Positions 652 through 57,600 of a stretch of 64,000 nucleotides of DNA are shown in pieces. Source of the DNA: Nymphaea colorata (Eukaryota > Streptophyta > Magnoliopsida > Nymphaeales > Nymphaeaceae); the NCBI RefSeq assembly GCF_008831285.2, contig NC_045145.1, forward strand, positions 20,582,802 through 20,646,801, in the 5' to 3' direction. Numbering within the stretch: the stretch's first letter is position 1; each line of letters begins with the position of its first letter. Under the pieces are notes generated by a model. It was given only the letters and a program-made list of their open reading frames with translations, did no database searches and was not told the DNA's origin. The translations under genes were made by a program, and so were the position numbers.

Positions 652-23596
<22,945 letters not shown>

Positions 23597-33410: not shown

Positions 33411-34731
33411 CTAATGGAGGAGGAGGAGAAAATTACTGGTGATCCATAGGATGAAGACGAGAAAGGGGAGGTGAGGAGAAGATGGTCTCGGAAGATGGGA
33501 CGCTTCGGATGTGTCCAGCTCAGACGAATCGACGGCCAGAGGCATACCGTCCTTGTCGACGCTGCAGGACCGGGGGCCCGGTGCGTCGTCGTCGATGCCG
33601 GCCGCGTCGTTGGCCATGAATGCCCGGAGCACCGCCGCGACCGTCGGGACGTAGGCCGTCTTGTTCTGGGCGAGGAGCCACGTCAGTCCCATCATCTCGC
33701 ACTCCCTGCGCTGCATCTTCCCCTTCCTCCTTCCTCCCTCCTCTTCGTCGGGCCTCGGCACCCTTGCCGTCGAGTTCCCCTTCCCGTTCAACTGGACCAA
33801 ACAAACACCCACATGAGACTTTCAATTGATGAATCGGAGATTCCCTCCTCCCTCCCTCCCTCTTTCTCTGTTATGAGAGGTGTTCACAGTTCTACACAAT
33901 CACATTGGTGATATGAGAGACAATTAGACAATCACAATGGAGATCAGCGTTCGGCAGAACGAGCATCATCCATTCTTTGCTCTACAACCGCACAGAGACG
34001 CACACGATAAGGGGCTTAAGCCGCCATGAACGGCTAGAGCTAGCTTCACAGCATTGCCTTAGCCGGAGAGAGAGCGAGAGAGAGAGAGAGTATGTGTGTG
34101 TGTAAAGAATCAGCAACTATTAGCTTACCTTGTAGAGACTCTTCAAGCACTTGGAGCAACCAGCGACGCCTGACCGGACGCAGTCCTTCTCGAGCTGAAG
34201 CGCGGCGGGCGCCGCCACCAGCTTGCCGTCGTCCGAAACGTCGAATGCCCCTGGGCAGCCCACTGGCCCGCTCAGCCTGTGGAGCCTGATGCCGCAGTAG
34301 CAGAAGTAGGCGTCGCAAGTCGAGTTGGGCTGCTGGATCTCGATCCCTTTCCTCTTGAGCGCCTTCTGGAGGTTCTCCACGCACATCTCCGAGTCGTCCG
34401 GCAGGATGGGCATGTCGAACACGGACTCCGGCTGCCGCACCGGCGGGCTGAGCGCCGTCCGCGCGTATGCCGCGTATAGCCACGCTGCCAGCACCGGGCA
34501 GCACCGCGCCCTCTCCGGGTTCTCCCCACCGCAGGCCGCGCGGATCCCCTTGAAGAGCTCCTCCGACAGGTCGAGCGGGCACCCCTCCATGTTCGACTGC
34601 TCCGGCAATGCCGGCACCGTCGCCGGTTGAGACTTCGGCAGGAACGTCTGCGTGGAAGGAGGGGATGCCTCGCACAGAAGCAACGAGATGAGGCAGAAAA
34701 AAAAGCACAATGGCAGCATTTTTCCCTCCAT
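33411..34731 (-). CDS. SPARK-domain GPI-anchored protein, At4g28100-like
   Basis: Secreted, probably GPI-anchored plant surface protein of unknown biochemical role. There are two exons: 34129-34731 (ATG at 34729-34731) and 33411-33791 (TAG at 33411-33413). A 337-nt GT-AG intron in phase 0 separates them, giving 327 aa against about 304 in Arabidopsis At4g28100. Residues 1-23 form a signal peptide with a hydrophobic core. The SPARK-type region (about 45-260) has many cysteines (51, 67, 77, 78, 117, 139, 144, 146, 159, 184, 192, 195, 232) and the family words CPLDL, RCCPVLAAWLYAAYARTAL, CDAYFCYCGIRLH and GLTWLLAQNKTAYVPTVAAVLRA. N-glycosylation sequons lie at N136, N207 and N244. The C-terminus ends in a hydrophobic tail (about 308-326) after a Ser/Pro-rich spacer, as expected for GPI attachment. 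Both exons are far more GC-rich than the surrounding DNA. Confidence 0.92.
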
Positions 34732-37320
34732 TTCACCCCTTCCCGCTCTCTCTACTTCTAGCCACCCTTCGCTCCTCAAAAGAAGAAAAAGGGGAGGTGC
34801 TGAGCTGCTAAGCTTTCTCTGTGCACCTGGGGAGGAGGGCGCTCATAAAAAGGGGAGGAAGAAATCAAACGGCGATGGTGGTCGTCCTTAATTTGGCTGC
34901 TTGTGATTGAGAGAGGGAGAGGGAGAGGGATCAGGCCAGAGCAAGCTCCCGTGGATGATAGCGATACTGAAATTATTGAAGGCGGAGAAGGAGAGAGCGC
35001 GCGGAAAAGGCTTCGGGCAGCGGTGCTTCTTTGCTCTCTCTACTGTCAAAACTCTGAACAGGAGCTGCGCCATTGGTGGTTACCACCGTCGATCTCGGAC
35101 GGAATGGTCCAAAACAGGGACCCAGTAGTCCGTGTTCTTTTGTTGTTGCATTGAGAGCCGAGTCGAGAGCCTACACGTGGTGGGTCCAAGTGGGGAGCTC
35201 GAAAGCAGCCTAGGCTCGGCTCGACTGGGCTCGGCTCAGCTCATTTTCCTCAATTCCTCCGCTTTATCCCTCTTTGGCCGCACTGGTTTATTCATCATCT
35301 TGGGTTTTCATGCGGATGTGAGTTTTGATTTCATAAATTTTCATCTGCTTCAGCTTTAAATGTTCCAACACCTTCTATTTAAATATTTTTCGAATATGCA
35401 GTTAAGTTAAGAAAAGCAAAACCGTACTTACATTCTAATATCATACATTGGCCACTAGAATATATTACACTTCAGTAGATGTTAACCTACTTTTTCTACT
35501 CTCTGATGTGATAGATCTTGCTATGGGAATATCCCTTTTCTCATCGACTTGAAGCAAGAACCTCTCAAACCTCCGGTGTTGATCCCGCTGCCTTTACGTG
35601 ATAAGTGCTTTGGAAATGAATTTGGAAGGGAAATCAGGCTTGAGTCCTCTTTGAGAACAGCGGTAAATCTGTTTGAATTCACATTTTTAGACACATGCAC
35701 CGGAAATCTTTGTCCATCTGATTTGTTGAGGAACCCAAAATCTCGTAGCCACGCATCTTTAGTGGAGTCATACTATATAATTTGATTTGCAAAGACTGAA
35801 TTTTCATCTTTTCGGAACTGAGGCGACATATAGAACAAGGAAATCTTTGTCGCTTCAATTGTCTGCCCTTTGTCTACCTAAACCGCATCCACAAAGAACT
35901 ACAAGGGCGTCAATCATTTTTTATTGATTTGGTGTTTTGCAAACAGCAGAAAGGAAGATCATTGATGTCTATCTTCAACATGAACGACAAGCAGATCCGG
36001 ATTCCCAATCAGGTAGACTTTCCCAAGTCGCATAAACAATTCAATGGCTCTGCAGGTAGCTGCTTCAGGAGCATTCAGGTCGAAATCTCTCCTTCGTATT
36101 TGTTGATAAAGAAAAACTGATACAGTTCATCAGTTCGATTCTTCTTGGTATTACTTATATCAACTACAAACTATCTTGTTGGTATTACTTACATGAACTA
36201 CAAACTATCTTGTTGGTATTACTTACATGAACTACAAACTATGGATGCATTGTGCGGATTTCAAAACATGTCTGAAACTCAGGGAAAAGAAACTAAAAAA
36301 AAGAGAGAGATGGGCTTCAGCCTCTTCGAAATATCTCTTCCATTTAATTCTCCGGCCGGCTTCAATGGCTCAGGGACGGTTGCTGCTGGGAGCCGTGAAA
36401 ATCGGGCGCGTGATTCCGGAATCAAGAACTCATCGTGTTGTTGCAATACAACGTCTGGGCAAAGGACACCACCTGCTGTGTTGGGTCACGCCCGTCGTCA
36501 GCCCATTGCCAGGAGCTCTGCGCAGTGAGGCCAGCGTTTTCGCTGGAGATAGAGATCGTTCGTCTACCATATCCGATCACCATCTTCAACTTCTTCTTTT
36601 CCTCGATTTGCTACTCTGCTCTACATTGAGCCGTTAACTTCTAGGAAGTTTACGTTCGGACGCCCACATTTTCACCATAACTTCCAAAATCGAGCCTCAG
36701 ATTCAAGATTATACCGCCACAGGTTTTGTTTTTGTCAACCCAGCTGCAATAATGTTCTCATTTTCTTTTCGAACTTTGGCTGGGAAAACATTTTCTCTGT
36801 CGTTTCATAGTACTCTTTCTTTCAGATACAACTGTTTAGCCATATCCGCATGAGGGCTCATAATTAAAGCAGATATCTTTTCCTTTATCGAGCCAAGTGC
36901 CTGGTTGGGGCTCACCAAACAGCGTTTAGAAAATGAGGCTAAGTCATGGAAGTACTCTTCTTCTAAAGGATTCATCGTAAAGCTAGATTAAAGTAATTGG
37001 AAGAAAGCTTGGAAGGGACATCTGTCTCCATTTTGAAGAAGAAGAAGAAGAAGAAAAAGGAAAGGGGATTGAAGATGCATAATTCATTCAGGTCAACTGA
37101 TATCCACTTTTGCCAAGATCAACATCCCTGTATTTTTCATCAGGTGGTAAAAGAATGATGAAGTGGAAGACTACGCGAGGATCAAATCTTCATCGCCACA
37201 TCACCTTGGATCTATCTGTTGTCTTGTCTGATTTTTGAAAGGTTCATTGTAATTAATAGAAAAGAAAAGTATGTCTATTATAGTCGGGACGAAGGTAAGT
37301 GTGGGCAATTTGAAGGTAAT
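34732..37320. other. Upstream flank of the GPI-protein gene and unassigned DNA
   Basis: The first few hundred bases are CT/GA-rich and should hold the leader and promoter of the minus-strand gene. A TTTTTTAT stretch near 34.85 kb is only a weak TATA candidate. Beyond 35.1 kb there are short ORFs without family resemblance and a 34-bp triplicate (36145-36246). No gene is supported. Confidence 0.45.
36145..36246 (+). repeat. Three 34-bp tandem units
   Basis: TTGGTATTACTTA starts at 36145, 36179 and 36213, each continuing as (T/C)AT(C/G)AACTACAAACTAT. Units 2 and 3 are almost identical. An ORF runs through the array but has no other support. Confidence 0.9.
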
Positions 37321-37490: not shown

Positions 37491-37698
37491 AATTGGCCTA
37501 TAAGAACCACAAAAAAAAACTTCCTACTTTTATATCGATAATTTTTGGGTAAATTTTTTTCATTTTACATATTGGTACCTCTTAAAATTTGAAAATTTTA
37601 TACCTAATGCTTCTTAGCCACAAAATTTTAGCTCCACCCTAATTATAGTGTTGATTTTCTTTTTTTTTTTAAAAAAAAAAAAGCAACAGCAAAAGCAC

Positions 37699-37888
37699 CA
37701 GGGGCGGAGCCAAGGGCCCGCATGGGCCCTGACCCCACTTTAATTTTTTTTTTTTGAAATTTACATGTAACTTTTAGAAAATTTCATTTGTTATATATAA
37801 AATTTTTGAAAAATGGTATTTCAAGTCCAATCAAAATTTAGAAACTTTAATTCAGCCCCCATCGTGAAAAATTTTTTGCTTCCTCCTG
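37699..37888. mobile_element. hAT-like element, CAGGGGCGGAGCC family, right end uncertain
   Basis: The left end CAGGGGCGGAGCCAAG is a typical plant hAT terminus. The interior (AAAATTTTTGAAAAATGGTATTT, then TCAAAATTTAGAAACTTTAAT) is shared with the 48.6-kb copy. The right end is degenerate and no target duplication was found, so the boundary is approximate. Confidence 0.55.
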
Positions 37889-48613: not shown

Positions 48614-48759
48614 CAGGAGCAGACCTAAGGGCGGAGGGCCTAACCCTCATCAAAATTTTACTTGTCCTATATAAAAATTTTGAAAAATAATATTTTAGTT
48701 CCTATCAAAATTTAGGAACTTTAATTTGCCTCCATGAAAAGTTTCTGGTTCTGCCCCTG
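48614..48759. mobile_element. hAT-like miniature element, 146 bp, 8-bp TSD
   Basis: The flanks CAAGCAAC (48606-48613) and CACGCAAC (48760-48767) match at 7 of 8. The ends are CAGGAGCAGACC and (reverse complement) CAGGGGCAGAACC. The interior resembles the 37.7-kb element. Confidence 0.72.
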
Positions 48760-49857: not shown

Positions 49858-49861
<4 letters not shown>

Positions 49862-49893
<32 letters not shown>

Positions 49894-50104
49894 GTTTATA
49901 CGCATGCACACACGTGACTGACCTGACGACATGCCCCCTCCTTCCCTCTCGTACCAAAACCCGCACATGGGGAGGTGAGGTTACGAGTCTCATGCATCAC
50001 CGTCGATACGATTTCTTTATTGTCATCAGCCTGTCATTATTGGTCTTCTTTCACACCTTTCTCAGATTCTCTACCCACCACCACTCAGCAGCAGCAGCAG
50101 CAGC
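49862..50104. repeat. (CT)n and (CAG)n tracts upstream of MIR168
   Basis: A CT run of about 28 nt (49862-49890) and an imperfect CAG/CTG run (about 50086-50112) lie within 350 bp upstream of the MIR168 TATA box. CT-rich tracts are common near plant promoters, but no function is shown here. Confidence 0.8.
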
Positions 50105-50188
50105 TGCAGCAGAGGCATCCAGGAATAATAAAAAGCTGGGCACCCACAAGAGGGAGAGCGAGGGAGAGGAGGATGGGAGATTTGTTTG

Positions 50189-50196
50189 TATAAATA
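50189..50196 (+). promoter_or_regulatory. TATA box of MIR168
   Basis: TATAAATA followed by GCTG lies 85 nt before the hairpin base. That places a transcription start near 50225, leaving a leader of about 55 nt. Plant MIR genes are pol II units and often have a well-formed TATA box. Confidence 0.7.
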
Positions 50197-50280
50197 GCTG
50201 TTGGGGGCAGAGAGCAGTGGATCATCGAAAGGGGAGCAAGCTAAGATAGCGAGATGCGTTTCCTTGATCGTTCTCGGTTT

Positions 50281-50431
50281 TGCTGTTTCCTCGAATTCGC
50301 TTGGTGCAGGTCGGGAATGGTTTTCCATCCGTGGGAGAGGTCTCCAGCGAAGAAGACCACACCTTCTTCTCTGTTCTCGCTGGAGAGAAACCCTTTTCCC
50401 GCTTGCATCGAGTGAACTGGAGGCGGCAGCA
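50281..50431 (+). ncRNA. MIR168: MIR168 precursor hairpin
   Basis: Pre-miR168. The mature 21-mer at 50297-50317 begins TCGCTTGGTGCAGG and continues TCGGGAA, identical to the conserved plant miR168 as I know it. The star strand is at 50398-50418 (CCCGCTTGCATCGAGTG and on). The arms pair well: TGCTGTTTCCTCGAATTC at the base faces a 3' segment whose reverse complement is TGCTGCCGCCTCCAGTTC, with G-U pairs. TCTCCAGCGA (50341-50350) and TCGCTGGAGA (50377-50386) close the terminal loop. In plants miR168 guides cleavage of ARGONAUTE1 mRNA and so sets AGO1 level by feedback. The gene is flanked upstream by a TATA box and downstream by a possible poly(A) signal at 50820-50825. ORFs that cross the hairpin are incidental. 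Confidence 0.95.
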
Positions 50432-50483
50432 AAAGAAAATAGGCGTTCCAAAGGTTTCTGTTTACTGGCGCCGAGGTGAAGGC

Positions 50484-50515
<32 letters not shown>

Positions 50516-50830
50516 TTTGTCTGTCTTGTTTGCCGATTTTTTTTCTCCAACTTTTCTTTTGTCTGTCCGTTTGCTTGCCTGCGCGATCTGCGTGTGTGGG
50601 ACGATGAAGTTCAATCTTGGTTTTCATTTGCCATAGGAAGCCAGAGACGGGGTTCTGGTTTCCAATTTTCTACTGTTGCCACCAATAACATTTGATATAA
50701 TTCGAAACTGTTAACCATTGTGCTTGATCGAACAGATGAAGAGAACGTGGGGGAAACACTCGTTTGAAGAAATCCCTTGACTGACGACCGTGGGATTATC
50801 ACGAATTTCAGTAAATTAAAATAAAAAGGC
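50432..50830 (+). other. Likely pri-miR168 3' region
   Basis: It follows the hairpin and holds a C8-10(CT)n tract at about 50480-50516, a possible donor (GAG|GTGAAG near 50475) and AATAAA at 50820-50825. The primary transcript may be spliced or may end here. No protein is supported. Confidence 0.4.
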
Positions 50831-54609: not shown

Positions 54610-57600
54610 TCAAGGCTTTTCCTGAGCGTTAAGTCCACGTGCATTCACCACTAGCAGCTGTAGATTGTTTCCTTCAAGTGCTGGTTGAGGCAGGAAAAGT
54701 TTGGCAGATTGGTCCGGTGCATGAACTCCACCATTAGTTGGATTAGTCCCATTAGTTGGATTAGTCACTTCACTAGCATTCTCAACTTTCAATTTTTTAA
54801 GCCCGACCACATCAGATGGAAGTGGATCTGTAACCTGCTTTGCAAGTAAAAGCCTGAGATGGAAGTGGACCTATAACCTGCTTTGCAAGTAAAACTTTTG
54901 AACATGACACTCAGACAAAAGGTTTGAGGAGAATCTTACAGAATCCACTGAAACTCTTTTATGATTCTCGTTGGAAGTAGTATTCTTGTTGGTAGAATCA
55001 TAAAGCCTCGACTTGGATTTTATAATTTTTGAGAGTATATTCTTGTGACTAGAATTACCTGCATGGATAATAGGGAAAATGCTTCAGTAATGCTTTCATA
55101 AAAACCTCCCCTTTGTATCTGTTTACTAAAAAATCGTTTAAAATTAAGAACATTACAAGCCCGTTCAAGGATTGTCTGGATAACTTTTCGTGCAGCCAGT
55201 TGTTCTGCTTCCCTTTTGCTCTTTGCTGCATTGCCAGTGTATGTCACACCATTAAAAACCACAGAAGAGACAAACATTGGTAGCAGGCCTGATGCTTGGA
55301 CTACAGTGTACGATGGTTTCTCCATGTTCGTTTTGACCACGAATTCATTAAGAATAGATTTGCAAAGTATTGTTTCCTGATAAATGATATTTGCAGAAAA
55401 TGGGAAGCATGTCAGAAGAGAAAAAGATTTAGCGTGAACACATTTTATCATATTATCAGCACATGTTCTCTCTAGGAACATTGAATCACATGAATATCAG
55501 CTTCATCTACTTATTGTATACCACCAAATGCTGCATCAAGTGGAACCGTAACAAGGTACTGAGTCCCAATAGATCATAAGATACACTAACGAATAATCAG
55601 TCTTTTTGCACTTTTAGGCAATGTTGTTGAAAGCACAGGACAATGTTAACTGATATTGATCAGGTCCAAAGTTACACAAATGAAGTGGCATATCTTTAAA
55701 AAATAAAAAATTTAATTTTAATATTAAAAAGCAACAAAAAATTAAAGAATCAGAAAAGTGAAAAAAAATCAAGGAATCGTGAACAAACTCTCAGTATGGG
55801 AAAACATGAATTGCATGGACATAGCAAATAACATGTATAATGCTGCCTATAACATGATGTTTTCATAAGAGTAATTAAAATTGAAAACTTGAATTGCTCC
55901 CTGTACGCAAATGGGTATCAAATAAATAAGTTCTGATTGCATGTGTCACTCCTTGGAGTCGTGAAACACCATAATGATCATGAAACTTGAAATACTTTAT
56001 TTTTGGAGCGCACAGATAAGCTCTCACAAAAAAAGCCATGGAAGCTCTAATTTGTTGAAAAAAATCAATCCCCAATTTTATTTTTTTAACACTTTAAAAG
56101 GCCTTCCATAACGAACTTAGTATTCATCCTTAAAAAAATTATGTAATTTTAAGATAAGAAAAAAAGAAAGCTCTTTACTCATTTTTTTAATATTTTGACA
56201 TAAGGTAAGACATGTACATCACACTGTAGCATAAAAGGGCGGATCATAAGTTAAGCTGGTTAGGTATAGTTACACCATTAAATTTTAAACTAGTTTTAAT
56301 GTGGACCATATCATTTTTGTTAGGGTCATGTTATGCAACATAAAAAATTACAAGATACACAACATTAGGCACAATATTGCCTCTAAGATTGCCATCGATC
56401 ACTAGTCATGTAACCAAATTGATTTGCTCAATTGACAAATTTGCAACATTTTCTCACACAAGCTTAGCAAGATATGATTATTGTGATGTTTTCTTTTTTC
56501 GTTTTAGTAAATGCTCAAGGTATTTCTATAAATAGTTCACAGACTAAAACAAGGTCGAAATGAATAATACGCCATCAATAAAGTTACCTTGATGCTATGA
56601 TGTAGATATCTAAACATATTAAAAAAAACTGGCTCCTCTACTGGCACAAACGGATGCAGAGAAAAACAAGAAAGAACTAGTACCTATTGCAATATTTACA
56701 CTAAATGATAATATTAATAAAAAAAAGTAAACAGAGAAATGACAGACCTGTAAGCTAGTCGGCACACTAGTTAAGCAAAAACTCAATATTATGCAATATG
56801 AAATTATAAAAGTTAAAGAATGTCAAAATTAATATAACCAAATTAACGTCAATTATATTACGTTACCTCACTTATCAGCCTTGTGCCCTCAACTTCTATC
56901 TTCTTTGATAATGACTCAAGTGCAAGCCTTGCAACATCCTGTTCTGCAGTCTTCCGGTGTTTGAAAGTGTGCTGCGATCGATAGGTCTCTCCATCAACAA
57001 TAACTGTAGCTCTAAATAAGGGTGCATGAGTGAAACCTTCATTAATTGTTTGATACAAAGGAAGTGGAAGACCCAATTTTTGAGCATATTCTTGAAGACG
57101 GTTCTTAAACATCAATTCAGTAGGAGCACCTGAATATGATTAAATGAATATCAATGAATTTCCTTTTTGTAAGTGTTTAAATTTTGTTTTAAAAAACAAT
57201 CAGAACCGAACAAACATACATGTATAATAATGTAAGCACAATCTTAAAGTTTTCCATAAAACCTGTGGAGATAAAAAAGCAACTACAACACTTAAAAAAT
57301 AAAAAGTCTCCAAACACAATATTCCAAAACTAAAATGGACATATAGATGCCAGAAGACGATAACTTTTGACCTATTTATGACAGGAAATAACAAATTAAA
57401 GAAAAATGAAAATAAAAAATTCACCATTTCTGATTATGTCTACATAATCGAAAGTTTAGCATGCGAACATGGCAAAGAACCACTCTGATATAATTTAGAT
57501 TTGTTTCCTTTCCAGTCAAAAGAACTTATTTATCCATACACAGGAAAGACAGAGAAAACTACAAGTATCATCCAAAACTCCATGATAGAATTCATTGTGG

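Follow-up and report, generated by a model that had tools for sequence, protein, structure and literature searches.

It is established for Arabidopsis that miR168 keeps AGO1, the main gene-silencing protein of plants, in homeostasis. In this species, MIR168a gives rise to mainly 21-nt miR168 (PMC2714465). At the 3′ end of miR168, the MIR168b foldback contains a large bulge; when overexpressed, this gene was reported to give 21-nt and 22-nt miR168 in equal measure (PMC2714465). In wild-type plants, 5% of the cloned miR168 has 22 nt, and AGO1 does not stabilise this form. The mir168a-2 mutant depends on MIR168b, and 21-nt miR168 alone was detected in it, which speaks against a simple rule (PMC2714465). 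Asymmetric bulges have been described to result in 22-nt miRNAs with 21-nt partner strands, and rice miR398b with a 1-bp insertion yielded a 22-nt miRNA (PMC7292542). The strand that is measured by DCL1 is said in this source to be unknown. In an edited rice line, a length of 22 nt did not suffice to set off secondary siRNAs, and none were triggered by an asymmetric miR160a precursor in Arabidopsis (PMC7292542). Bulges and mismatches may also yield 20-nt strands (PMC7102948).

Here, we describe a MIR168 locus of the water lily Nymphaea colorata, located in a stretch of 64,000 nt (the window) on contig C8 of a 407.8-Mb assembly with 783 contigs. It is an ordinary MIR168 gene that is best read as a divergent paralogue, the third copy in this genome. 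No report of a Nymphaea MIR168 gene was present by title or abstract among the matches listed, and the main text of the N. colorata genome paper does not contain the terms ‘miRNA’ or ‘small RNA’ (PMC7015852).

The MIR168 hairpin of the window

The 21-mer TCGCTTGGTGCAGGTCGGGAA at positions 50297-50317 of the forward strand is the exact mature miR168 (0 mismatches). This confirms the sequence-only reading, which had noted a mature sequence identical to the conserved plant miR168. It is the sole match with up to three mismatches in the window, while shuffled windows contain 0.01 such matches on average, with a match in one out of 100 shuffles. The same reading had proposed a long paired base with a closed loop, to be checked by folding 50270-50440. 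This fold indeed consists of a single long stem of −83.4 kcal/mol from 50278 to 50434 on the forward strand (first to last paired base), with the two arms opposite each other and the mature miR168 on the 5′ arm. Shuffles of the same stretch reach a mean of −53.6 kcal/mol (z = −6.76) and none of 200 is equally stable. Plant miRNA genes are characterized by a foldback shorter than 300 nt with few mismatches, at most three bulged nucleotides in the duplex and no side stem within the duplex. The foldback in the window, with 157 nt and one unpaired nucleotide in the duplex, falls within these bounds.

The Rfam model of MIR168 (RF00677) matches 50279-50434 over all of its 129 positions with a score of 54.2 bits (E = 3.5e-12), accompanied by an opposite-strand match of 28.9 bits that mirrors the same palindrome. 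The score lies below the gathering score of 66, which is a rule of Rfam for listing and not a biological property, and the match is significant genome-wide (E = 6.8e-10). An alternative explanation would be a hairpin formed by chance around a chance 21-mer. With 0.01 mature matches expected per window even at three mismatches, no shuffle among 200 that folds as well and such a genome-wide E-value, this explanation has a negligible probability and is refuted by the joint evidence of mature sequence, fold and model match.

A scan of the whole window at the Rfam gathering threshold returns no match. Three open frames of at least 120 amino acids overlap the hairpin, at 50268-50636 on the forward strand and at 50071-50610 and 50241-50669 on the reverse strand, none of which matches a Pfam family. 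Judged by these frames, there is no sign of a known coding gene across the hairpin. The earlier remark that the locus could be missed is therefore right, as the overlapping frames lack a Pfam match and the gathering scan is silent on the hairpin. Annotation based on the Rfam threshold would recover two MIR168 loci in this genome and lose the third, the copy in the window.

The TATA box that had been announced 85 nt upstream was found as well: TATAAATA can be read at 50189-50196 of the forward strand, 85 nt before the hairpin start taken in the sequence-only reading and 108 nt before nucleotide 1 of the miRNA. The copy on C12 carries an identical TATA box (TATAAATAGCT, 157 nt before the mature start) and the copy on C4 carries TATAAATG at 117 nt. 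The motif TATAAAT[AG] is thus present within 200 nt upstream of the mature sequence in all three MIR168 copies. Across the forward strand of the window, 32 out of 1276 overlapping stretches of 200 nt contain it.

Some further elements of the window can be mentioned. Microsatellite tracts of CT/GA flank the MIR168 locus at 49861-49895 and 50486-50520. More distant are a reverse-strand frame at 1526-2140 with Helicase_C and RecG domain 3 matches, belonging to a RecG-like helicase gene, and a reverse-strand frame at 34120-34842 with a SPARK domain match. A gene with two dsRBDs resembling HYL1/DRB4 is located at 55020-57139 (reverse strand), convergent with MIR168 and approximately 4.6 kb from the hairpin. 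Its frame at 56858-57139 (reverse strand) is closest to DRB4 (E = 5.8e-22) and HYL1 (E = 3.9e-19) and its frame at 55020-55496 (reverse strand) to HYL1 (E = 1.9e-7). A cofactor of the miRNA pathway adjoining a regulator of AGO1 is a notable arrangement. It may be coincidence, because the frames of the two-dsRBD gene have no match at E = 1e-4 within approximately 50 kb of the MIR168 loci on C4 and C12.

Divergence of three MIR168 copies

Exact miR168 sequences occur at three places in the genome, on C4, C8 and C12. A genome search with RF00677 retrieved at least three MIR168 loci, of which those on C12 (83.7 bits) and C4 (81.9 bits) score above the cut-off, as opposed to the copy in the window (54.2 bits). 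The mirror matches of C4 and C12 were retrieved too, and no others at E = 0.001 among the candidates scored. As 42 out of 12,191 first-look candidates were scored, these counts are lower bounds. Five other places in the genome (L004 to L008) contain a sequence with three mismatches to miR168, and a reversed control pattern gave two matches at the same looseness. These five were rejected as MIR168 loci, since none has an Rfam MIR168 match at E = 0.01, and also as argonaute sites: no site-spanning frame of more than 60 amino acids looks argonaute-like by eye, and L008 has no such frame.

Region-wise identities between the three copies are inflated by free gaps. Hence, alignment scores were compared to those of 500 mononucleotide shuffles instead, for three sequences only. 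The mature sequence is identical in all copies (no shuffle as good). In the 60 nt before it, the score of the window copy is reached by 100 shuffles against C12 and 349 against C4, and in the 59 nt after it by 290 and 184, respectively. Between C12 and C4, the 60 nt upstream are alike (1/500) but the 59 nt downstream are not (271/500). Past the star, the next 60 nt of the window copy are similar to those of C4 (1/500) and not to those of C12 (192/500), and C12 is likewise similar to C4 there (1/500). An identical mature sequence between flanks that are no more alike than shuffles suggests that the mature sequence is held by selection, with the window copy apparently diverged to shuffle level over the 60 nt before and the 59 nt after. 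The likeness to C4 after the star speaks for a common descent of the copies, of which it would be a trace. By these alignments, the copy in the window stands apart from the other two.

The whole window (50 kb before and 14 kb after the hairpin) was also compared to approximately 50 kb on each side of the C4 and C12 loci. No microsynteny was found at the thresholds used (frames of at least 40 amino acids at E = 1e-4, DNA at E = 1e-3); apart from the MIR168 arms, the matches were short and dispersed. Dispersed repeats common to these stretches are situated at 37698-37886, 48652-48730 and 12430-12700 of the window (60-190 bp, approximately 75-84% alike).

The canonical C4 and C12 loci and the window copy have the identical mature sequence, a star arm opposite to it, a TATA box and a stable foldback in common. 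The duplexes of C4 and C12 comprise the canonical star CCCGCCTTGCATCAACTGAAT and 1 × 1 mismatches at nucleotides 4 (C.C) and 15 (U.C) of the miRNA. The star of the window copy differs: the base opposite nucleotide 15 is deleted, and because it is missing, U15 (50311) bulges out as a single nucleotide instead of forming a 1 × 1 mismatch (unpaired probability of 0.91). Nucleotide 4 pairs with G (probability of 1.00), instead of the C.C mismatch. The spacer between mature and star measures 80 nt, compared to 64 nt in C12 and 51 nt in C4. Compared to the canonical star, that of the window copy has one base deleted and two substituted within the duplex, and none of these changes breaks a pair. The deleted base was already mispaired in the canonical copies, a C to G change turns the C.C mismatch at nucleotide 4 into a pair, and an A to G change weakens a U-A pair to U.G. 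One further difference sits in the 3′ overhang. Given 2-nt 3′ overhangs, the predicted pair positions delimit the star of a 21-nt miR168 at 50398-50417 of the forward strand (20 nt). The sequence-only reading had rightly placed a star arm opposite the mature sequence, but its delimitation at 50398-50418 is one base too long and leaves a 3-nt overhang, and the bulge had escaped it.

These changes bear on whether the copy is still in use. A decaying and silent MIR168 paralogue that remains foldable by accident would fit with an Rfam score below the threshold, the deletion in the star, sequences before and just after the mature that can no longer be recognised as related to those of the other copies, and the lack of microsynteny in the stretches compared. 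Random decay is nonetheless expected to hit the mature sequence like the rest, and this sequence is intact (21/21). The long lower stem and the TATA box are retained, and all three star-arm changes in the duplex leave the pairs in place, with one weakened to U.G. We therefore deem a silent paralogue quite improbable. That the star changes break no pair speaks instead for selection on the hairpin, as an informal comparison of three sequences.

A putative AGO1-type target

The sequence-only reading had also proposed to look for the AGO1 target site in the same genome. A genome search for the ArgoN domain gave 15 matches, several of which are exon pairs of one gene. The 15 loci (3.1-3.7 kb each, with approximately 1.5 kb on each side) were searched for sites of miR168 on either strand; longer upstream stretches were covered for the C2 and C1 argonautes only, and the far 5′ ends of those on C6, C7 and C10 lie outside the scan. 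The best site, with a penalty of 5.0, is located in a gene on C9 and was seen in two overlapping loci (L034 and L042). A second site with a penalty of 6.0 occurs in an argonaute gene on C14 (L033), and no other site of at most 6 is present in the 15 loci. None of eight scrambled miRNAs gave a site of at most 5 in the same loci.

The C9 site, ATCCCGATCTGCGCCAAGCTG (C9:11713887-11713907, reverse strand), begins 402 nt ahead of where the ArgoN match begins and lies in frame within an open frame of 277 amino acids, in which it encodes PDLRQA. Its imperfect pairing, with mismatches at nucleotides 2 and 21 of the miRNA and three G.U pairs, weakens the case, although the Arabidopsis AGO1 site is also mismatched at nucleotide 2. 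In the PDB, the 277-amino-acid frame matches protein argonaute 10 (7sva; E = 9.7e-9) and the next frame downstream does so at E = 1.4e-24, far ahead of metazoan-type argonautes, though such matches do not separate AGO1 from AGO10. Two features presumably agree with AGO1, namely where the site lies and an N-terminus that is long and rich in Gly, Pro and Gln, and the C9 gene is taken as AGO1 on these grounds. The argonautes on C1 and C2, with a short N-terminus and an MPLGQM start, presumably correspond to AGO10, and no site on their gene strand has a penalty below 9.5 in the stretches scanned. The best gene-strand penalties for C6, C10 and the first C7 locus are 10.5, 9.5 and 8.0, respectively. 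A degenerate pattern of the Arabidopsis-type AGO1 site found no AGO gene in the genome but only the three MIR168 loci and L009, which was rejected as a target since its long open frame is not argonaute by eye.

Mature sequence, foldback, Rfam match, TATA box, two canonical paralogues and an AGO1-type site all agree with the earlier interpretation of the locus as a MIR168 gene. It is very probable that this gene has its own promoter and feeds the negative feedback on AGO1. By what is known of the family, RNA polymerase II would transcribe it from the TATA box at 50189 and DCL1 would cut the foldback into a miR168/miR168* duplex. Once loaded into AGO1, the miR168 would guide the cutting of AGO1 mRNA, and this negative feedback would set the AGO1 level.

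The length of the miR168 product

Next to the bulge at U15, the end of the duplex distinguishes the window copy. Nucleotide 22, a U at 50318 of the forward strand, is unpaired (probability of 0.89), whereas nucleotides 22-24 are paired in the C12 copy (1.00) and nucleotide 22 is paired (0.98) and nucleotide 23 unpaired (0.87) in the C4 copy. A putative 22-nt miR168 (50297-50318) would partner a 21-nt star at 50397-50417. Because asymmetric bulges have been reported to cause 22-nt miRNAs, the window copy is a candidate for the production of miR168 with 22 nt. We tentatively propose that it yields a larger share of the 22-nt form than its two paralogues, given a bulge in the miRNA strand that these lack and a pairing that opens right after nucleotide 21. 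By analogy with Arabidopsis MIR168b, it would be the ‘b-like’ copy. Both are further copies with a disrupted pairing at the miR168 3′ terminus (PMC2714465). The star of MIR168b was cloned as 21 nt and 22 nt (PMC2714465, Table 1), and the 1-nt bulge at nucleotide 15 is a feature of the window copy that is absent from the description of MIR168b in the available text of that paper.

Alternatively, cutting by DCL1 may release a 21/20 and not a 22/21 duplex. The window copy would then be active and deliver the same 21-nt miR168, with a bulge that has no consequence, and to this we give about an even chance. Such cutting is compatible with the interpretation as a MIR168 gene and competes with the 22-nt part only. 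It agrees with 21-nt miR168 as the main form in Arabidopsis (PMC2714465) and with the 20-nt strands that bulges and mismatches may give (PMC7102948). Conversely, the reported outcome of an asymmetric bulge is a 22-nt miRNA of which the partner still counts 21 nt (PMC7292542), and the pairing opens directly after nucleotide 21, as reported for MIR168b (PMC2714465).

Going beyond a larger 22-nt share, the control of AGO1 could be split, with the two canonical copies producing 21-nt miR168 and the bulged copy dedicated to the 22-nt form. Such a division would have been reached through the deletion of the star base opposite nucleotide 15, a structural change other than that reported for MIR168b, and it might also start secondary siRNAs on AGO1 mRNA, but it seems rather unlikely. 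The bulge poses a modest and directly testable question. If it sets the product length, the water lily would offer a natural comparison of 21- and 22-nt miR168 made from one mature sequence, because the star of the window copy distinguishes its reads from those of the other copies. The 21/22-nt split would thereby be testable in a plant far outside the Arabidopsis lineage.
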